Part shown: piece after piece, positions 2 through 8,518 of the stretch
Layout: each line of letters opens with the position of its first letter
Position numbering within the stretch: position 1 is the first letter of the stretch
Assembly: GCA_030622125.1 (NCBI GenBank)
Contig: JAUXGM010000089.1
Span: 1-8,518, forward strand
Direction of reading: 5' to 3'
Source: a bacterium
GTDB taxonomy: Bacteria > AUK180
Length of the DNA stretch: 8,518 bases
Notes under the pieces: model-generated
Database searches by the model: none
Told to the model about the DNA's origin: nothing
What the model saw: only the letters and a program-made list of their open reading frames with translations
Program-made: the position numbers and the translations under genes

Positions 2-940
2 ATAAGAAAAACGGTAACCTCAGGTAAAAAACTTATTGTGGGAATAAACTCAAGGTTTTTAGTTACCAGGCCAATAAATGTCGCCGGGGTGCCTGGAACC
101 CCTGAGTTTGAAAGTGCATTAGATAAAGCAATGACAGAAAGTTTTACAAATCATCCGAGAGAAACGATCCAAACTTCTTATGAGGTACTGACGAAGGGGG
201 ACGGTGAAACACCTTCGAATGTTCTTATATCAGCAGCAAAGGTTGTAGCCATCAATTTTTATAAGGATATAATCAATAGACTTGGTTATAAATTGACCAT
301 TGTAGACGGTGTGCCCTTTGCACTTAGCAATATCGCTAAGCATGTAAATTCAATGGATAAAGATTTCCAAAAGTTGAATAAAGAAGAAAAAAATTACATT
401 CATATTGATATCGGTTATAATAATCTCAATATCATCGGAATTAAAGCCGATACCCCTGCTGTATTTAAAGGATCTTTTGATTTTTGCGATCATAATGTAA
501 TAGAAGTGATAAAGCAAAACGAAGGTCTTTCCACTGATCAGGAGGTCTATAAATCAAAATATGAAAAGTTCGATGAATTATTGTCTGCAAAAGAAAATGA
601 GAAAGCGGATGTAAAAAGAGATGTTCTCAGCAAATATTTCAAAAACTACTTTAGTGGTCAAACGATAAGTCTTGTCAGTGAGATCGAAGAAGTAATTTCT
701 CAAATGGACCTTAGTAAATCCGAAATAAGGAAAATCTCTCTTTCGGGTGGGGGCTGTTTTTTCCCATTGATAAACCAATTCATACTTTCAAAATTCAAAG
801 ATGAAAATGAAAATATTAAAGTTGAATTTCTAAATCCTTTTTTACAAATGGTAGCAAGAAATCCACAAAAAGTAAAGGACACAAAATGGCTTAAATCACT
901 CTATGCAACTGCAACCGGACTTGCTTTGAGAACACTATAA
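2..940 (+). CDS. pilM: PilM, actin-like T4P assembly protein (5' end missing)
   Basis: Cytoplasmic actin-fold ATP-binding protein that docks on the N-terminal tail of PilN at the inner face of the T4P machine. The reading frame is open to the left edge, so the GTG at 38 is an internal valine and the true start lies upstream. Compared with Thermus PilM from memory, roughly 60-65 residues are missing, including the first phosphate-binding motif and part of the PilN-binding groove. In the 312 visible residues I see the early strand GKKLIVGINS leading into VTRPI, then the second actin-like phosphate motif IHIDIGYNNLNIIGI (about 130-144). The adenosine-type motif SGGG is at 248-251, followed by NPF and a terminal ATATGLALR, both typical of PilM. 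The stop is 12 bases before pilN, which has its own AAGGAG. The operon context (pilN, pilO, pilP, pilQ, pilC) supports PilM over FtsA or MreB. Confidence 0.93.
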   Translation: MRKTVTSGKKLIVGINSRFLVTRPINVAGVPGTPEFESALDKAMTESFTNHPRETIQTSYEVLTKGDGETPSNVLISAAKVVAINFYKDIINRLGYKLTIVDGVPFALSNIAKHVNSMDKDFQKLNKEEKNYIHIDIGYNNLNIIGIKADTPAVFKGSFDFCDHNVIEVIKQNEGLSTDQEVYKSKYEKFDELLSAKENEKADVKRDVLSKYFKNYFSGQTISLVSEIEEVISQMDLSKSEIRKISLSGGGCFFPLINQFILSKFKDENENIKVEFLNPFLQMVARNPQKVKDTKWLKSLYATATGLALRTL

Positions 941-952
941 AAGGAGCGTAAA

Positions 953-1507
953 ATGCTACAAATAAATTATTTACCTACAAAAAAGAAGGGTTTCAAGTTA
1001 GAAGTGAATTATTTTTATTGGGCGGCTGAAGCAGTAGTTCTTTTAATATTCATACTGATTTTTAATGGAGTTCTTACTCACAAGATAAATGCAAAAGAAA
1101 ATGAGATTAAAACAAAACAAGCAGAAGTGGAAAGGAATAAAGGATTGTTAAAACAGATTAAGGAATTTAGCAATATGCGTGCTGCCCTTGAAAAGAAAAA
1201 GAGCATTATAGACGGCTTGAATAATGACAGACAAAAATGGGTAAGAGTAATTGACACTTTATGCAATATTATTCCGGATCAGGTTTGGCTAACTTCTTTT
1301 AAAGGAAATCTACAAAGCGTCAATATTTCCGGTTATGGCATAACCATTTTGTATATAAATGAGTTCATAAAAGCACTTCAAACACAGGATAACATGTTTT
1401 CTACCATTACATTGAAATACATTTCTTCAGGTAAGGTTCCTGAGATTGCTCAATCAATACATAAATTTGAAATAGATATTACATTGAAAAGTGAGGTGAA
1501 AAAATGA
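953..1507 (+). CDS. pilN: PilN, inner-membrane T4P alignment protein
   Basis: Bitopic inner-membrane protein that couples cytoplasmic PilM to periplasmic PilO. At 184 residues it has the usual PilN length. The short cytoplasmic tail carries INYLP (residues 4-8), a variant of the conserved INLLP-type motif known to bind PilM. One membrane helix follows (about 22-41), then a Lys/Glu-rich coiled coil (about 43-95) and an alpha/beta ferredoxin-like domain (about 97-180) that in the family dimerises with PilO. The ATG start is supported by AAGGAG at 941-946 with a 6-base spacer. The stop codon overlaps the next start as ATGA. Unusually, the downstream gene is a secretin rather than pilO. Confidence 0.93.
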   Translation: MLQINYLPTKKKGFKLEVNYFYWAAEAVVLLIFILIFNGVLTHKINAKENEIKTKQAEVERNKGLLKQIKEFSNMRAALEKKKSIIDGLNNDRQKWVRVIDTLCNIIPDQVWLTSFKGNLQSVNISGYGITILYINEFIKALQTQDNMFSTITLKYISSGKVPEIAQSIHKFEIDITLKSEVKK

Positions 1508-2775
1508 AGATATATAGGATTATGGTAATTTTTGTCCTGATGATTTTACCAATTACTATTTTCTCTGAAAATAAAATTGAATTTTCGAAGAAGCGGGGTA
1601 AAATCTATATAACCATTGATGTTGTAAATTACCCTGTGAAAAAATTGCTGAAACAGATCGCAAAAGAGAAAAAGATGGAACTTATATTTTCTGCCAATGT
1701 GCGAGGCGAATTTACAGGCAGATTTACAAAGGTTCCCGTTGATATGATTTTTGATAAAATTTTAAAATGCAATAATCTTAGTTATGAAAAGTTAGGGAAT
1801 ATTTACAGGGTTGATTCTATCAAGAGTCTTGATGCATATAGACAAAAGATGCTGCAGATACAGGCAACCAACCAGGCTGTCAAGGATCTTGAAACACATA
1901 TGATCAAGATAAATTATGTTTCTTTGAGTTCCATTTCCAATAATGTTCAAAAATTACTTTCCGACCGAGGTTCCGTAATGTCTGATGAGAGAACAAAAAA
2001 GTTGATCGTTACAGATGTTCCGGAAAAATTCCCAATAGTTTATAAATTTATACAGGCAATTGATGTCCCGACTCGACAGGTATTGATAAAGGTAAAATTT
2101 GTCCAAATCAATCATTCAAATCTTGAACACATAGAATTTTATTGGTCGGCAGATAATAAAAATACCTCGTCAGCTACCAAGATCACCGGCGGTTCATACA
2201 CCGGTTCCTCATCTGCATACCCTTCAAGTAATGCAGGTTTACTAAGAATCGGAATTGTAAAGAACTATGTTGAGCTTGAAGGTGTTTTGAATATGTTAGC
2301 ATCGAATAATAAAGCAATTGTCCGCTCTCATCCCCAAATACTTGCTTTAAATAACGAAGAGGCAAGTATCAATATCGGGAATAAAATTCCTTTGAGAATG
2401 GTTGATGAAACAGGCAAGTTAACCACGCAACTTACGAGTGTCGGCACACAAATTCAGGTTACCCCACAAATAACGGCAAACAATCAAATTATATTGAAAA
2501 TTCATCCTGAGGTTTCATCAATTGCGGGACAATTCGGTTCCGGTGTTTTAATAGATACCAATCAAATTGATACGCAGATAATGTTGAAAAATAAGGAAAC
2601 AGCAGTTATCGGAGGTTTGGTAAAATCTGAGGATACCAGAACCAAAGCGGGTATTCCGTTTCTATCAGACATCCCGATCATAGGTGCACTTTTTAGATCA
2701 AAAGAAACGAGTAAAAATAGAATTGAGATACTAATAATGGTTACTCCTATCATTCAGGAGGGAAACAATGAATAA
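1504..2775 (+). CDS. Compact secretin-family protein, second PilQ-like paralogue between pilN and pilO
   Basis: Predicted exported outer-membrane secretin of 423 residues. A signal peptide covers about 1-21 (MKIYR, hydrophobic core, cleavage likely after IFS). An N0/STN-type domain follows (about 35-103), then an N1-type ring domain (about 130-195), a Ser/Gly/Thr-rich stretch (about 218-243) and a full secretin core (about 270-419). The core has the hallmarks ASINIGNKIP, QLTSVGTQIQVTPQI, ILKIHPEVS, TAVIGGLV, GIPFLSDIPIIGALF and EILIMVTPII. Nearly all of these recur in order in PilQ encoded downstream, so the two are paralogues. This one lacks the AMIN domains and acidic linker. Its start overlaps the pilN stop (ATGA) and is preceded by GAGGTG at 1493-1498; its 3' end contains the pilO ribosome binding site. 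Canonical operons have pilO here. It could form its own pore, mix with PilQ in one ring, or be a second gate; the sequence does not decide this. I give no symbol because pilQ fits the later gene better. Confidence 0.9.
   Translation: MKIYRIMVIFVLMILPITIFSENKIEFSKKRGKIYITIDVVNYPVKKLLKQIAKEKKMELIFSANVRGEFTGRFTKVPVDMIFDKILKCNNLSYEKLGNIYRVDSIKSLDAYRQKMLQIQATNQAVKDLETHMIKINYVSLSSISNNVQKLLSDRGSVMSDERTKKLIVTDVPEKFPIVYKFIQAIDVPTRQVLIKVKFVQINHSNLEHIEFYWSADNKNTSSATKITGGSYTGSSSAYPSSNAGLLRIGIVKNYVELEGVLNMLASNNKAIVRSHPQILALNNEEASINIGNKIPLRMVDETGKLTTQLTSVGTQIQVTPQITANNQIILKIHPEVSSIAGQFGSGVLIDTNQIDTQIMLKNKETAVIGGLVKSEDTRTKAGIPFLSDIPIIGALFRSKETSKNRIEILIMVTPIIQEGNNE
2756..2761 (+). promoter_or_regulatory. Ribosome binding site of pilO inside the upstream secretin gene
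   Basis: A perfect AGGAGG lies 6 bases before the pilO ATG at 2768 and within the last codons of the secretin gene, which ends at 2775. It fixes the pilO start and shows that the 8-base overlap is genuine. Confidence 0.85.
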
Positions 2776-3343
2776 ACAAACAACAAATATTGTTGTTCTT
2801 ATCGCCATTGCAGTTATTTTTATAGGTGCTTTTTTTATGTTTTCTTATAAGGGCAAAACTGCTAAGATAGCTGAATTGAGTGATAAAATAGGACAGCTTG
2901 ATAAGAAATTGCAAGAAGCTGAAGAGAATAAACAGAAACTCCAACTTCTTAAAAGAGAAATAGAAGATCTTAAGCTTGCTTTAAAATATGCAAGAGAGAA
3001 GTTGCCGTCCGAAGAAGAAATAACCCTTCTTTTAGATAATATTAATAAGCTCGGAACAATTGAAAGTAATATTTCTATTACATCCTTCAAACCTTTAAAT
3101 AAAATTACGCGAGAAATTTACTATGAAAAGCCATACAGTATGAAAATATTCGGTAGTTTTCATCAGATCGCCACATTCTTTAACAAGATCGGGAATCTTA
3201 ATCGAATCATTAATATTGATAAACTTTCCATTAGCCCGTCAAAGGGGAATTTTGAAGCGGTAAGTCTTGAATTAAAAACATATATTTACAATGACCCTTC
3301 TGTTACAGGGGGTAAATCAGGTTCTAACAGGGGGACCAGATGA
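2768..3343 (+). CDS. pilO: PilO, inner-membrane T4P alignment protein
   Basis: Periplasmic partner of PilN in the T4P alignment complex. At 191 residues it matches the family. A very short cytoplasmic tail precedes one membrane helix (about 8-27) and a coiled coil (about 31-78). The characteristic KLPSEEEI turn follows (78-85), opening the ferredoxin-like domain. That domain contains SITSFKP and then the conserved YSMKIFGSFHQIATFFNKIG with NLNRIINI after it, which is diagnostic of PilO. The C-terminal tail is Gly/Ser/Arg-rich and probably disordered. The start follows a perfect AGGAGG; the stop overlaps the pilP start as ATGA. Being separated from pilN by a secretin gene is the odd point. Confidence 0.93.
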   Translation: MNKQTTNIVVLIAIAVIFIGAFFMFSYKGKTAKIAELSDKIGQLDKKLQEAEENKQKLQLLKREIEDLKLALKYAREKLPSEEEITLLLDNINKLGTIESNISITSFKPLNKITREIYYEKPYSMKIFGSFHQIATFFNKIGNLNRIINIDKLSISPSKGNFEAVSLELKTYIYNDPSVTGGKSGSNRGTR

Positions 3344-3804
3344 AAAAGATTATTATTTATGCTATTACGGTAATATTTATACTTTTTGCATTATTTTCTT
3401 GTGGGTGTCGGAAAGAGAAAGAAGAGCAACCCACCACCAGAGCTCATCGCAGCCAGAAAGTTATTACTGAACCGAAAGAGGAAAAAGAAGATCTTGAAAA
3501 CGAAGTCAAGTATGTCTATGAACCAAATGGAAGACGTGACCCGTTTAAACCGATATTAAGTTTTCAAAGTAAGGTCGATATTGACAAGATCAAGCTTGTT
3601 GGATTTGTAACAAATAGTAAAGGAAAGATCAAAGCAATAGTAGAAGACGAAACAGGTAATTCGCATTACCTAAGCGAAGGTGATTTTTTGGGACAGGCAA
3701 AGGTTGTATCTCTTGATATTAAAGAAAAAAAACTAATATTTGAGATACAAAAAGATTACTATACAACAAAAAAAACTCTTCAATTGGAGGCATCTAATGA
3801 ATAA
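3340..3804 (+). CDS. pilP: PilP, T4P pilot/linker lipoprotein
   Basis: Inner-membrane-anchored lipoprotein that connects the PilN/PilO complex to the N0 region of the secretin. At 154 residues it is slightly short but within range. A hydrophobic signal (4-20) ends in a lipobox LFSC with the probable lipidated cysteine at 21; Cys23 is also close but has a poorer context. A charged, presumably disordered linker (about 24-60) precedes the family signature GRRDPF (64-69) and PFKPI. A small beta-sandwich HR domain follows (about 75-150: IKLVGFV, KAIVEDETG, YLSEGDFLG). The start overlaps the pilO stop (ATGA) and is preceded by AGGGGGA at 3329-3335. With two secretins in the operon, either N0 domain could be its partner. 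Confidence 0.92.
   Translation: MKKIIIYAITVIFILFALFSCGCRKEKEEQPTTRAHRSQKVITEPKEEKEDLENEVKYVYEPNGRRDPFKPILSFQSKVDIDKIKLVGFVTNSKGKIKAIVEDETGNSHYLSEGDFLGQAKVVSLDIKEKKLIFEIQKDYYTTKKTLQLEASNE
3786..3790 (+). promoter_or_regulatory. Ribosome binding site that sets the pilQ start
   Basis: GGAGG lies 6 bases before the ATG at 3797 and inside the 3' end of pilP. It favours the start at 3797, which also begins a clean signal peptide, over the in-frame ATG at 3740. Confidence 0.85.
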
Positions 3805-6232
3805 AAAAACATTTTTAATATTGCTTTTTATTCTATTTTTTACTGTTGGGTATGGAGCTAATATAAGTAAAATTGATTATCAAACTCAGGATGACGAAGA
3901 AAGAATTTCAATAGAAACGGACAAAGCGGTAAAATATGAATGTTACCCTCTAAATGATATTTCAATTATAATAATAAAAGATTCTATTCTTTCCGACGAA
4001 GTGAGTTTAGAAGGAGAAGGTAAACTTATCAAAACGGTAAATGCCTTTCAATTTACTACCGACCCCACAAATAGCATTGCAATATTGTTACAACATGCAA
4101 ATCCGGTTCATTATGAAATTGACAAAAATGGTTTCGGAATTATTTCGGGTAGTGAAGAATATCCTGATCAACCTGAAAATATATTTAATATCGCGAAGGA
4201 ACGATATAGAAATAAACTTTTTGAGATCGCAGAGGAAATGTTTGCGGTTGAAAAATATGATGAGGCGACAGTTATGTATAATTCCATTTATGGAGATAAT
4301 TTCTATGTTCCTTTATACATAATCAATCAGGTTAGAATGGAACTTAAAATGGAACCGATTAAAGTAGAGGAAGTTGTCAAAGCGGAAATACCGGCGGAAG
4401 AGATTGTTGAAGAAGAACCGGTAGAAGAAATTATAGAGGAAGAAGAACCTACAGAAGTTGTTGTAGAAGAAGAAGAACCGGTAGAAGAAATTGTCAAAGT
4501 GGAAACACCGACAGAAGAGATTGTTGAAGAAGAAATCCCGGAAGAAGTTGTAGAAGAAGAGCCGGTAGAAGAGATTGTGGAAGAAGAACCGGTAGAAGAA
4601 ATTATAGAGGAAGAAGAACCTACAGAAGTTGTTGTAGAAGAAGAACCAGTGAAAGTTTTAAATATTATAAGCGAAATAGCTCTTTTACCCGAGAAGGAAA
4701 TGACTCGACTTCAGATAGTTGCAGACACAAAATTAATGTATGAATTTAGAAAAAATGACAAGGCAGCATCAATAGAGATAAAAATACTGGATGCTAAATA
4801 TGAATATGAGGCACCACAAAAAGGTGGCTATATAAAAGCAATAAGTGGAAATCAGCAAAATGATAATTATATTATTAATATTGCTTATGTCAAAGACGCC
4901 GACATTTCTATTTTTCCCATTGATAATATTATTGAGTGCGATATTCTAAGACCCATTCAAAAGGTTGCAAAAGAGAAGAAAAAATATGTTCAATTTGAGA
5001 CCCCTAAGGAGAAAACGAAAACTTTAACAACAACAATTCCTGTTGGGAAAAAATATCGTGGACTTTCAAAGATATCCTTGCATCTAAAGGAAGCGAATTT
5101 AACATCCTTATTAAGACTTATTTCTATGGAGACAAAAATTAATATTTATTCTGATCCCGGAATTACCGGAAAGATCACTATTGATATTGATAACCAACCA
5201 TGGGAACCGACACTTGATGTTATACTGAAAAATTATGGACTGACAAAAGAATGGGAAGGTAAAAAAACGATCCGAGTTACCAATTTTGATCGACTTGCAA
5301 AAGAAAAGGAAATGGCAAAAAAAGCATTGGAAACAGAGCAGGATTTGGATCCGTTGGTTACAAGAATTTATCAGTTAAGTTTTGCACAGGCAAATTCAAT
5401 TATGGGATATCTTAAACCACCGTTACTTTCCAAAAGAGGAACTACGGATTTTAATCAAATGAATAATATTCTTATCGTTAGAGATACACAGAAAATATTA
5501 AACAAAGTAGATAGATTTGTGAAAGAGCTTGATGAAGAAACAAGACAGGTTAATATTCTTGTAAGAATTTACCGATTAAATAATATTTCTTCTGAAACGA
5601 TAGGAGTCAATTGGAGGATGAATAATAGTCCGTCGGCTACGGATATTTCTGCATCCGGAGGTGTAAATTTAGGGTCATCAACTCCTTCATTTACACAAAG
5701 CATGGGAATGACATCTGTTTTTTCTCCAACTCAAATAGCAAATATAAACCTTTCCCTTTCCGCCCTTATGAGTAAAAATCAAGTGGTATTAGAAAGTTAC
5801 CCGAATATTACTACATTAAACCATCAAACCGCAAGTATTATTATAGGACAAAAGGTTCCGATAACTATGCTTGACGAAGCAGGAAATACAATTACCCAAT
5901 TAACAACAGTTGGAACAAAAATAAGAGTTACTCCACATATAAATGCCGATGGAAAAATAATACTAAAAATACATCCGGAGATAAGTAATTTAGCAGGGGT
6001 TGTTGCAGGGCTGGTCAATATTGCAACAAGTGAAGCGAATACTACCTTAATTGTAGATAATGGTGATACGGCAGTTATAGGTGGATTAGTAGAATATAGA
6101 AAAACAAAGACAAAAGGTTTTATCCCGTTATTAGGAAAGATACCGTTATTAGGACTTCTTTTTCAAAAACATGATACATCATTGAACCAGGGAGAAATTT
6201 TAATCTTTGTAACTCCAAAAATAGTGGAGTAA
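3797..6232 (+). CDS. pilQ: PilQ, T4P outer-membrane secretin with glutamate-rich repeat linker
   Basis: Secretin forming the outer-membrane channel for the pilus; 811 residues from the chosen start. Order of parts: a signal peptide (1-20/21, MNKKTFLILLF...); an AMIN-type peptidoglycan-binding domain (about 22-118); a helical, TPR-like segment (about 127-175); nine Glu/Val/Pro repeats (201-285); a second AMIN-like domain (about 288-385); N0/STN (about 424-496, with ITGKITIDIDNQPWEPTLDV); N1 (about 520-580); a Ser/Thr/Gly-rich stretch (about 612-640); and the secretin core (about 658-809, with ASIIIGQKVPI, QLTTVGTKIRVTPHI, ILKIHPEIS, TAVIGGLV, IPLLGLLF, EILIFVTPKI). The ATG at 3797 is preferred because a signal peptide starts there and GGAGG sits 6 bases upstream. 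It overlaps pilP by 8 bases, and pilC follows after 4. AMIN domains plus PilM/N/O/P neighbours identify PilQ rather than a type II secretion GspD. The long acidic linker is unusual. Confidence 0.94.
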   Translation: MNKKTFLILLFILFFTVGYGANISKIDYQTQDDEERISIETDKAVKYECYPLNDISIIIIKDSILSDEVSLEGEGKLIKTVNAFQFTTDPTNSIAILLQHANPVHYEIDKNGFGIISGSEEYPDQPENIFNIAKERYRNKLFEIAEEMFAVEKYDEATVMYNSIYGDNFYVPLYIINQVRMELKMEPIKVEEVVKAEIPAEEIVEEEPVEEIIEEEEPTEVVVEEEEPVEEIVKVETPTEEIVEEEIPEEVVEEEPVEEIVEEEPVEEIIEEEEPTEVVVEEEPVKVLNIISEIALLPEKEMTRLQIVADTKLMYEFRKNDKAASIEIKILDAKYEYEAPQKGGYIKAISGNQQNDNYIINIAYVKDADISIFPIDNIIECDILRPIQKVAKEKKKYVQFETPKEKTKTLTTTIPVGKKYRGLSKISLHLKEANLTSLLRLISMETKINIYSDPGITGKITIDIDNQPWEPTLDVILKNYGLTKEWEGKKTIRVTNFDRLAKEKEMAKKALETEQDLDPLVTRIYQLSFAQANSIMGYLKPPLLSKRGTTDFNQMNNILIVRDTQKILNKVDRFVKELDEETRQVNILVRIYRLNNISSETIGVNWRMNNSPSATDISASGGVNLGSSTPSFTQSMGMTSVFSPTQIANINLSLSALMSKNQVVLESYPNITTLNHQTASIIIGQKVPITMLDEAGNTITQLTTVGTKIRVTPHINADGKIILKIHPEISNLAGVVAGLVNIATSEANTTLIVDNGDTAVIGGLVEYRKTKTKGFIPLLGKIPLLGLLFQKHDTSLNQGEILIFVTPKIVE
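4391..4474 (+). repeat. Direct repeat, copy 1 (84 bp) in pilQ
   Basis: First copy of a near-identical pair whose second copy begins 171 bases (57 codons) later. By hand alignment 81 of 84 bases match; the differences are at 4395, 4396 and 4408, and the last 66 bases (4409-4474) are exact. It encodes repeat units 1-3 less the final residues. Confidence 0.85.
4397..4651 (+). repeat. Nine tandem Glu/Val/Pro-rich coding repeats in pilQ
   Basis: Residues 201-285 of PilQ are nine back-to-back units of 9 or 10 residues with consensus E(E/V)(I/V)(I/V)EEE(E)P(V/T). Examples are EEIVEEEPV, EEIIEEEEPT and EVVVEEEEPV. A degenerate unit, VEEVVKAEIPA, precedes them. The fourth unit (EEIVKVETPT) and fifth (EEIVEEEIP) are the most divergent. 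The stretch is about half glutamate, strongly negative, and probably an extended linker between the two AMIN-like domains. Confidence 0.9.
4562..4645 (+). repeat. Direct repeat, copy 2 (84 bp) in pilQ
   Basis: Second copy of the pair starting at 4391; it encodes repeat units 7-9 with exact identity over 4580-4645. The offset is a multiple of three, so the duplication keeps frame. The high DNA identity points to a recent internal duplication or ongoing homogenisation. Confidence 0.85.
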
Positions 6233-6236
6233 TAAT

Positions 6237-7451
6237 ATGCCAATATATCTTTATAAATACAAATTAAAAGATGGAAAAAAAAGATCGGGTGAGTTAACTG
6301 CTGATAATCCCGAGGAAGTTAGAAAAAAACTGAATCGTACAAATATTGTTCCGGAAAGCGTTAGCATTAAAGAGAAATCAAAATTTAACGCCGAGATAAA
6401 TCTGCCGACAATTGAAATAATAACCCCGGCGGATGTTGCTATTTTTACAAGGCAATTTTCAGTTTTGTTGGATGCGTCGGTTGAATTAACAAGATCTTTT
6501 GATATTTTAGCTAAGGAGATCGAAAAAAAGAAATTTAAAGCGATTCTGATGGATATTAAGGAGAGAATAGAAGGCGGAACACCGATAGCACAAGCATTGG
6601 GAGCATATCCAAAGCATTTTGATACCTTATATGTCAATATGGTTGCGTCCGGCGAGCAAAGTAGTAATTTGCCGCAAGTATTTGCACGTCTTGCCGATTA
6701 TATGGAAAAATCGGAAGAGATTAAACACAAGGTAAAAAGTGCAATGACCTACCCTGTAATTGTTGGTATTGCCGCAGTTGCTATGGTTACTTTTATGTTA
6801 ACAAGTGTTATACCTACATTTAAGGAGATGTTTGAAGATATGGGTGGGAAGCTTCCGCCTCCAACTCTATTTTTATTTAATGCAAGTGACTGGACAAAAC
6901 ATAATTTTGTATTTATTATTTTAATCGTTGCTGCCCTTATAACCGCCCACATCGTTATGAAAAAAAAGGTTGATAAGTACGATTGGTTCCTTAATTTTCT
7001 TGCTTTAAAAATTCCGGTCGCCGGTAATATTACGATTAAAACTGCTATGGCACGTTTTTCAAGAACGCTTTCCACATTAATGGATTCCGGACTTGATCTT
7101 CCGGAAGCACTTAAAATAAGCTCTAAAACTACCGGAAATAGATTGTATGAAGAGGCAATTATGGAGGCAAGAGAAGCCGTAATGGGTGGACAGTCCCTTA
7201 CAATGCCGCTTAAAGAAGCAAAGATATTTCCGGGTATGATGCTTCAAATGATCGATGCCGGTCAGGAAGCAGGTAAGACAGGTGAACTTTTAACAAAGGT
7301 TGCGGATTTTTATGAAAGTGAGGTTGATGTTGCAGTTGAGGGATTGATGTCTGCACTTGAACCGATTATTATGCTTGTTCTCGGTAGTGTATTGGGTTTC
7401 ATTGTTATAGCAATGTTTGCACCTATCTTGACAATGGCAACCTTAGCTTAA
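6237..7451 (+). CDS. pilC: PilC, T4P inner-membrane platform protein (GspF family)
   Basis: Polytopic inner-membrane platform that contacts the assembly and retraction ATPases and the pilin subunits; 404 residues, the normal length. An N-terminal segment (LYKYKLKDGKKRSGEL, about 4-45) matches the PilC/GspF start. Two related GspF domains follow. The first (about 67-190) has FTRQFSVLLDASVEL, GGTPIAQAL, NMVASGEQSSNLPQVF and TYPVIV. The second (about 268-392) has ARFSRTLSTLMDSGLDLPEAL, GGQSL, MLQMIDAGQEAGKTGELL and EPIIML. The two domains repeat the same motifs. Membrane helices are at about 170-193, 223-243 and 376-398. The start is ATG at 6237, 4 bases after pilQ, with TGGAG at 6225-6229. It sits last in the pil cluster here, with no ATPase gene beside it in the window. 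Confidence 0.94.
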   Translation: MPIYLYKYKLKDGKKRSGELTADNPEEVRKKLNRTNIVPESVSIKEKSKFNAEINLPTIEIITPADVAIFTRQFSVLLDASVELTRSFDILAKEIEKKKFKAILMDIKERIEGGTPIAQALGAYPKHFDTLYVNMVASGEQSSNLPQVFARLADYMEKSEEIKHKVKSAMTYPVIVGIAAVAMVTFMLTSVIPTFKEMFEDMGGKLPPPTLFLFNASDWTKHNFVFIILIVAALITAHIVMKKKVDKYDWFLNFLALKIPVAGNITIKTAMARFSRTLSTLMDSGLDLPEALKISSKTTGNRLYEEAIMEAREAVMGGQSLTMPLKEAKIFPGMMLQMIDAGQEAGKTGELLTKVADFYESEVDVAVEGLMSALEPIIMLVLGSVLGFIVIAMFAPILTMATLA

Positions 7452-7453
7452 AG

Positions 7454-8518
7454 ATCGTAAAATTAAAAAAAATAATCAATCTTATTCTGTTAATAATAAT
7501 CATCGTTTTCCCGTTTGTAAATAAACCAATTCTTTTCATCTTAATTTCAGTTATATTTGTAATAATAAACATAAAAAACATTTCATTAAAAACCACCGAT
7601 ATACCTTTCTATCTCTATTTTGTATTTGTTTTAATTAATATTATTTATACAAAAAATATTGATGATACATTGATATTTGGTTATTTACTGTTATTTATTA
7701 TTTTAGTTAGGGGACCAATAGAAAAAACAGATAAAGAAAATTATGAAAAAATTTTCTTTGCTGCAGGAATTTTTTTGATTATATATGGTATTTACCAGAG
7801 ATTTATTCTTTATCCGCGTTTGGAGGTTTTTCTTCAGACTGTTGAAAGCCCTATCATTGATATAGGAAATTATACAGCGTACATTAAAAGACATAGGATA
7901 CTTGGTTTTTATATTTCTCCTAATATATTTGCCATCATACCTTTGATGTTTACATATAATTATCTTAAAAAATTAAGACTCGGTTACATTCTATTTACCA
8001 TTACATTCTTGATAATGCTCTATCTAACACGTTCTTTTAATTTAATTATATTTTTCACCATTTTATTATTTTCATGTATTAAACGAAAATACTGGAAGCT
8101 TATTATTATTTCAATAACGGTTGTTATTATAATTCTATTTTTAAGTAGAAGGTCGAGTTTTCAGGACGGGTCCATCGCCAACCCTATTAAAATGCGTATA
8201 AAAAATTATCATTCGGCAGTTAATATCTTTTTTAGAAGTCCATTTATAGGACACGGAATATCAAGTTTCAAAGATCTTTATCCAAAATTTAAAATAAAGG
8301 GGAGTAATGATATAAAATATACCCATAATATTATTTTACAGCACCTTTGCGATGGAGGGGTAATATTTTTACTTCTCTTTTTATATCTGATCTACACAAT
8401 CTATAAAAAACTTCCAGCCAATGAAAGATACTTTCCAACAGCAATACTTGTTCATAATTTATTTTCATTTTCATTTTACTCTTCATCGGTTTTCCTTCTT
8501 TTTTTTGTATACTACTAT
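7454..8518 (+). CDS. O-antigen ligase/polymerase-like membrane protein (3' end missing, start codon unclear)
   Basis: Multi-spanning inner-membrane protein resembling the Wzy_C family (O-antigen ligase WaaL, polymerase Wzy, bacterial O-oligosaccharyltransferases). These transfer or polymerise lipid-linked glycans at the periplasmic face. The frame is open from 7388 to the window end. Features counted from 7454: repeated hydrophobic helices from the very start (KKIINLILLIIIIV); RILGFYISPNIFA near 148-160, a common R-x-x-G...PN motif; a periplasmic segment with MRIKNYHSAVNIFFRSPFIG then HGISSFKDLYPKF; and THNIILQHLCDGG with the family's characteristic His at about 291. No ATG, GTG or TTG exists in frame before a TTG at 7670, and the first in-frame ATG is at 7946, deep inside. 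ATC at 7454 is given as a nominal start because hydrophobic protein sequence begins there; it has no clear ribosome binding site. It abuts pilC, so a role in pilin glycosylation is possible, but an unrelated glycan locus is equally so. The DNA looks more AT-rich than the pil genes. Confidence 0.75.
   Translation, partial: MVKLKKIINLILLIIIIVFPFVNKPILFILISVIFVIINIKNISLKTTDIPFYLYFVFVLINIIYTKNIDDTLIFGYLLLFIILVRGPIEKTDKENYEKIFFAAGIFLIIYGIYQRFILYPRLEVFLQTVESPIIDIGNYTAYIKRHRILGFYISPNIFAIIPLMFTYNYLKKLRLGYILFTITFLIMLYLTRSFNLIIFFTILLFSCIKRKYWKLIIISITVVIIILFLSRRSSFQDGSIANPIKMRIKNYHSAVNIFFRSPFIGHGISSFKDLYPKFKIKGSNDIKYTHNIILQHLCDGGVIFLLLFLYLIYTIYKKLPANERYFPTAILVHNLFSFSFYSSSVFLLFFVYYY

Follow-up and report, generated by a model that had tools for sequence, protein, structure and literature searches.

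Organization of the pil locus

The window analyzed in this study, by which we mean the whole stretch of 8518 bases, is the entire contig C117, from a draft genome of 2.08 Mb, and has a GC content of 33%. All its genes lie on the + strand, in the order pilM (cut), pilN, a short secretin gene, pilO, pilP, pilQ, pilC and the first part of a Wzy_C-like gene (Table 1). Two secretins are therefore encoded in one gene run, and we refer to the additional one as SHORT and to the canonical downstream PilQ as LONG. A previous sequence-only reading of this DNA had described SHORT as a complete secretin of 423 residues between pilN and pilO, with pilQ 1 kb downstream, a description that the Pfam domain set bears out. 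The features by which that reading coupled SHORT to its neighbors, namely the ATGA shared with pilN and an embedded ribosome-binding site for pilO, are real in the sequence, the latter as CAGGAG(G) before the pilO ATG. SHORT also has an 8-nt overlap with pilO, both overlaps are largely conserved in the window's family, and the operon position of SHORT supports its being encoded together with the alignment proteins.

Table 1. Features annotated in the window
Feature	Position	Strand	Basis
pilM, 5' end truncated by contig end	2..940	+	Pfam PilM_2, E 2.8e-11
pilN	953..1507	+	Pfam PilN, E 2.3e-9
SHORT secretin: signal peptide, N0, N1, secretin core; no AMIN detected	1504..2775	+	Pfam/NCBIfam; orthologues in G001, G003, G004, G005, G006; AF2 core match to V. 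cholerae PilQ 6w6m
ATGA shared by the pilN stop and SHORT start codons	1504..1507	+	Sequence; same in G003, G004; 14-nt overlap in G001
SHORT/pilO 8-nt overlap; CAGGAGG ribosome-binding site within SHORT just upstream	2768..2775	+	Sequence; same overlap in G001, G003, G004
pilO	2768..3343	+	Pfam PilO, E 2.9e-30
pilP, lipoprotein-like	3340..3804	+	Pfam PilP, E 1.4e-4, just below gathering score, plus synteny
LONG secretin PilQ, 811 aa from ATG: signal peptide, weak AMIN-like domain, acidic repeat linker, N0, N1, core	3797..6232	+	Pfam
Acidic Glu/Pro/Val tandem repeat linker in PilQ	4364..4647	+	TRF
pilC	6237..7451	+	Pfam T2SSF, E 1.2e-56; sole T2SSF/PilC-type gene found in each window-family genome

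Beyond pilC, positions 7670–8518 encode a Wzy_C/O-antigen-ligase-like membrane protein, which is kept at this place in the genomes G002, G003 and G004 and, with a weaker match, in G005. This protein is a candidate pilin glycosyl/oligosaccharyl transferase.

SHORT is a complete PilQ-type secretin

The start of SHORT is signal-peptide-like, and the signal of its orthologues ends in an A-x-A-like site. It is followed, by Pfam, by STN/N0 at residues 61–103 (E 9e-4, a match that misses the gathering score), Secretin_N/N1 at residues 131–192 (E 2e-9) and Secretin at residues 265–417 (E 1.6e-42). This succession of N0, N1 and core, encoded together with pilMNOP, is that of PilQ-type secretins. The best NCBIfam model for SHORT was TIGR02515 (PilQ) at 251 bits, which is under the 284-bit cut-off of that model; the canonical PilQ of the window likewise falls below it at 237 bits, and the SHORT orthologues of a second family exceed it at 294 and 286 bits. 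A GspD-like origin was ruled out by the profiles and by the tree described below, as SHORT scored 178 bits against the 351-bit cut-off of TIGR02517 and has a single Secretin_N, not the N0-N1-N2-N3 set. SHORT also resembles HofQ, the short DNA-uptake secretins, in its N0-N1-core layout, its lack of AMIN and its length (~412–419 positions in HofQ), but it scored only 175 bits with the HofQ model versus 251 with that for PilQ, and its operon also encodes a PilQ that bears AMIN.

The AF2 monomer model of SHORT, built on a 22-row alignment, has a mean pLDDT of 60, with values of ~60–90 for N1 and most of the core and below 50 for N0 and the signal region, so that the N-terminal quarter is of low confidence. 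The model contains long paired strands (pLDDT mostly 60–90) and matches PilQ, GspD and InvG structures, Foldseek ranking V. cholerae PilQ 6w6m first (E 7e-23), ahead of InvG and GspD secretins. It supports a normal secretin core and is uninformative on homo- versus hetero-assembly. SHORT is a complete secretin, neither a fragment nor an accident of assembly. It is like the type IVa pilus secretin PilQ (TIGR02515) in domain order, in its operon with pilMNOP and pilC, in its core motifs and in its closest solved structure, and differs from it by the position between pilN and pilO, by being a second copy in an operon that already bears pilQ, by a diverged N0 and by the missing AMIN, for which Pfam gave no match in SHORT, where only ~30 residues precede N0. 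Between the two paralogues AMIN was detected on the LONG copy only: the match in the window's PilQ is below the Pfam cut-off (E 0.02–0.08), and the LONG orthologue of the second family has AMIN above the cut-off, in two stretches.

Both copies are retained throughout the assembled loci of the phylum

Our sample of the phylum comprised seven genomes from two families, the window family (f1) and a second family (f2). SHORT and LONG were both present wherever the locus was assembled, which was the case in six of the seven genomes, and SHORT orthologues were found in five genomes besides that of the window, three in f1 (G001, G003, G004) and two in f2 (G005, G006). The three f1 genomes have the order pilM-pilN-SHORT-pilO-pilP-pilQ, their contigs ending inside pilQ and the remaining pilQ and pilC lying at another contig end. 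All three assemblies break there probably at the acidic repeat that corresponds to positions 4364–4647 of the window. In f2 the order is pilO-pilP-SHORT-LONG (G005, and G006 as far as assembled), with pilM-pilN before and pilC after this run in G005. The position of SHORT has therefore changed within the operon between families, but never to outside the operon. Its description as inserted between pilN and pilO holds for the window and three other f1 genomes and not for f2, where SHORT is next to pilQ.

The 8-nt SHORT/pilO overlap is identical in all four of these f1 genomes and the ATGA overlap with pilN occurs in three of them, G001 having 14 nt. Mis-assembly of the window's contig was ruled out, because G001, G003 and G004 repeat its gene order and the two f2 genomes have a related one. 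In the remaining genome, G002, SHORT is missing along with pilN and pilO, a pattern indicative of a gap in the assembly, and we rejected a true absence of SHORT there.

Divergence and constraint of the two copies

The sequence-only reading had noted that SHORT has most core motifs in common with PilQ. The motifs are indeed shared in order, but overall identity between the copies within a genome, from N0 to core, is only 33–35%, and since this value recurs in all five genomes compared there is no sign of gene conversion. A twelve-sequence alignment contained 57 invariant columns and 23 in which SHORT and LONG each have a fixed residue of their own. By domain, SHORT and LONG are 42–44% identical in the core, 32–34% in N1 and 21–23% in N0, and between families N0 identity is 38% for SHORT versus 50% for LONG, all of these values being drawn from few sequences with one f2 genome. 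The greatest differences between the copies lie in N0 and AMIN.

Between the two genomes of genus g2, dN/dS was 0.089 for SHORT and 0.079 for LONG, and by this sequence comparison the two copies are under similar purifying selection. One member of a duplicate gene pair often decays, and this general expectation is all that would favor SHORT being a superfluous or decaying copy with no role of its own. Given that SHORT is intact in six of six genomes from two families, has the above dN/dS and retains its core motifs and start/stop overlaps, we regard decay as very improbable.

Phylogenetic origin of SHORT

In a tree of 88 rows the six SHORT and six LONG sequences formed two clades, each with support of 100/100, that were sisters at 99/94. 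Support for this sister relationship was 97/93 and 93/91 with smaller taxon samplings, and reciprocal clades were obtained in all three trees. SHORT accordingly pairs with the PilQ of its own lineage and not with GspD-like secretins, these being the two outcomes the sequence-only reading had envisaged for such a tree. In AU tests, holding either SHORT or LONG with twelve outgroups cost ~6 log units and was not rejected (p 0.31 for SHORT, 0.33 for LONG), and the same test with the six nearest outgroups was borderline (p 0.050 and 0.046); an earlier split of the two copies is thus compatible with these tests.

The nearest outgroups in two of the trees were mostly single short PilQs of 429–474 aa from other phyla, and their position shifted in the third tree. 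Those of G140, G331, G213, G031 and G163 have this length and the same layout as SHORT but, unlike SHORT, each is the sole PilQ of its pilMNOP locus. For some short-PilQ outgroups AMIN is encoded by a neighboring gene, either as an AMIN-PilP fusion (locus L145) or as a 309-aa AMIN protein (locus L151). The fusion in L145 (4410–6140) is a 576-aa protein with an AMIN N-terminus and a PilP C-terminus, encoded directly before the short PilQ, which places the wall anchor on PilP instead of PilQ. Based on these outgroups, a short PilQ without AMIN is an ordinary architecture, and it may be an older one than the long form, so that the earlier term "stripped-down" for SHORT may have the direction wrong.

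The architecture shared with the nearest outgroups would also fit a horizontal origin, in which SHORT is a PilQ from another phylum and not a duplicate of the resident one, and the AU test does not reject a clade of SHORT and the twelve outgroups. However, SHORT is sister to the resident PilQ in three of three trees, the genomes searched yielded no closer relative from outside the phylum, and LONG gives the same AU result, so that nothing marks SHORT as foreign; we consider such an acquisition improbable. Judged from these sequence comparisons, the most likely origin of SHORT would be an old duplication within the operon at the base of the phylum, or possibly somewhat earlier with losses elsewhere.

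Tandem PilQ genes were not found in the sister phyla searched. The additional PilQ copies of the G331 phylum were ruled out as orthologues of SHORT or LONG, as they form a distant clade and have their own PilM and PilC. At least one independent run with two secretins exists, and rare parallels may occur beyond the matches listed in a survey of 386 genomes. This run is gspD-gspE-gspF-pilMNOP-pilQ in G016 (locus L183, 5369–14589; gspD-gspE-gspF-pilM-pilN-pilO, the pilP position, then pilQ). It is like the window locus in having two secretin genes and a single inner-membrane set in one gene run, but its secretins belong to the GspD and PilQ branches, each above its own family cut-off, and are not sister paralogues as SHORT and LONG are. 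Two further loci, L052 and L056 (both 2–8338), each contain an open frame of 2778 aa that includes a secretin-like part, on contigs labeled as cyanobacterium and phycisphaeral, respectively, and are possibly one mislabeled record or a fused frame.

One pilus machine or two

Throughout the window family we found one PilC/GspF gene and no more than one PilO match per genome, and PilN matches in the family are confined to the pil operon, plus a weak one in G000 beside a GspD-like secretin. Since only one PilC and, in assembled loci, one pilMNOP set were found per genome, SHORT most likely works in the same pilus machine as LONG, and the separate pilus that had been suggested for it is less likely. 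A second full pilus system was rejected as a candidate, as the window family has no second PilC; in f2, G005 has a second T2SSF gene on contig C177. The genome of the window has two secretins beyond SHORT and LONG. One, of 473 aa with two Secretin_N and no N0 match (L073, 1690–3111, contig C129), adjoins a beta-helix/NosD-like protein on a short contig without recognized pilus genes and is apparently an orphan. The other belongs to a minimal T2SS-like cluster (L072, 4061–9181, contig C178) of a GspD-like secretin, a pseudopilin and a PilN-like protein that has no GspF of its own in this genome with one PilC/GspF.

SHORT might instead form separate homomeric rings, as a pore for another filament or substrate (e.g., HofQ-like, in DNA uptake) that shares PilC and PilMNOP. 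HofQ-type secretins share the N0-N1-core layout and are of similar length (models of 412–419 positions), the diverged N0 of SHORT fits a different inner partner, and the four large PilB/GspE-type ATPases of each f1 genome, which suggest that several motors may act on one shared platform, would permit several filaments. Yet the single PilC and pilMNOP set speak against such a use, as does the contrast with the G331 phylum, in which second PilQ-type secretins lie in separate clusters with their own PilM and PilC, as expected of an independent second system, and the tree places SHORT beside its own PilQ and away from the GspD-like groups sampled. We therefore view a separate filament or substrate as unlikely. 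In G000 the four ATPase genes are scattered over contigs C181, C116, C170 and C69 among unrelated neighbors, versus one PilC, and the count is the same in other f1 genomes. Together with the two further secretins of the window's genome, these ATPases make a second filament that shares PilC conceivable.

Discussion

The AMIN domains of PilQ bind peptidoglycan and position the machine, and N0 is the domain that docks on PilP (PMC5285504). PilQ without AMIN formed stable but non-functional oligomers in P. aeruginosa, with the machine mislocalized (PMC5285504), and failed to assemble in M. xanthus (PMC10653833). AMIN is not universal among PilQ proteins, and across species its presence tends to accompany polar pili and its absence peritrichous pili (PMC10653833).

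Beyond the genes themselves and their observed co-conservation, constraint, phylogeny and domain difference, we infer a shared machine in which the two pores mix or alternate. SHORT would be an old PilQ paralogue that arose by duplication within the pilMNOPQ-pilC operon, no later than the base of the phylum, and that later would have moved in one family from the pilP-pilQ position to that between pilN and pilO, or the reverse. Both copies would be full pore-forming secretins of one type IV pilus machine that has only one PilMNOP set and one PilC. LONG, with AMIN, linker and a more conserved N0, is predicted to be the copy that binds peptidoglycan and docks on PilP, and SHORT would contribute a barrel with a diverged N0 and no wall anchor. 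The labor could be divided in mixed rings in which only some subunits have AMIN and PilP-docking surfaces, or the copies could be interchangeable pores giving wall-anchored and free machines.

An in-operon duplicate sharing the labor of one pilus machine, by mixed rings or by interchangeable pores, is our best explanation overall and, on balance, a probable one. Its two forms, a regular mixed ring and alternative homo-rings of the same machine, are each possible but tentative when taken singly, and the same holds for the reading in which the outer-membrane ring is an obligate hetero-oligomer of a wall-anchored, PilP-docked paralogue and a barrel-only partner. Production of both proteins, and their meeting in one ring, are predictions from the gene sequences. 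A precedent exists in PulD, whose full-length and N-terminally shortened subunits co-assemble as mixed multimers seen as a 13-step ladder (PMC4604470), although the cores of those subunits were identical whereas those of SHORT and LONG are far less so, as given above.

The open literature searched contained nothing on a dual-PilQ operon, a PilQ duplication or hetero-oligomeric secretins in such an arrangement, nor a description of a secretin ring that is naturally hetero-oligomeric and made of two dedicated paralogues, and no sign emerged that the arrangement is widespread and already described. The operon with two PilQ paralogues, real, conserved and functional as judged from sequence, is thus apparently an undescribed element, each part of which is of a known kind. 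To our knowledge, secretin rings are treated as homo-oligomers, with one PilQ per machine. Where such operons occur, systems will be miscounted by genome annotation tools that assume a single secretin in every pilus locus. An operon that keeps, phylum-wide, two PilQ paralogues with and without AMIN and with different N0 domains represents a natural experiment on AMIN and the PilP-docking surfaces. It bears on whether every subunit of the ring needs these surfaces, and it makes the choice between a mixed ring and swapping between two pores testable in one pilus machine.
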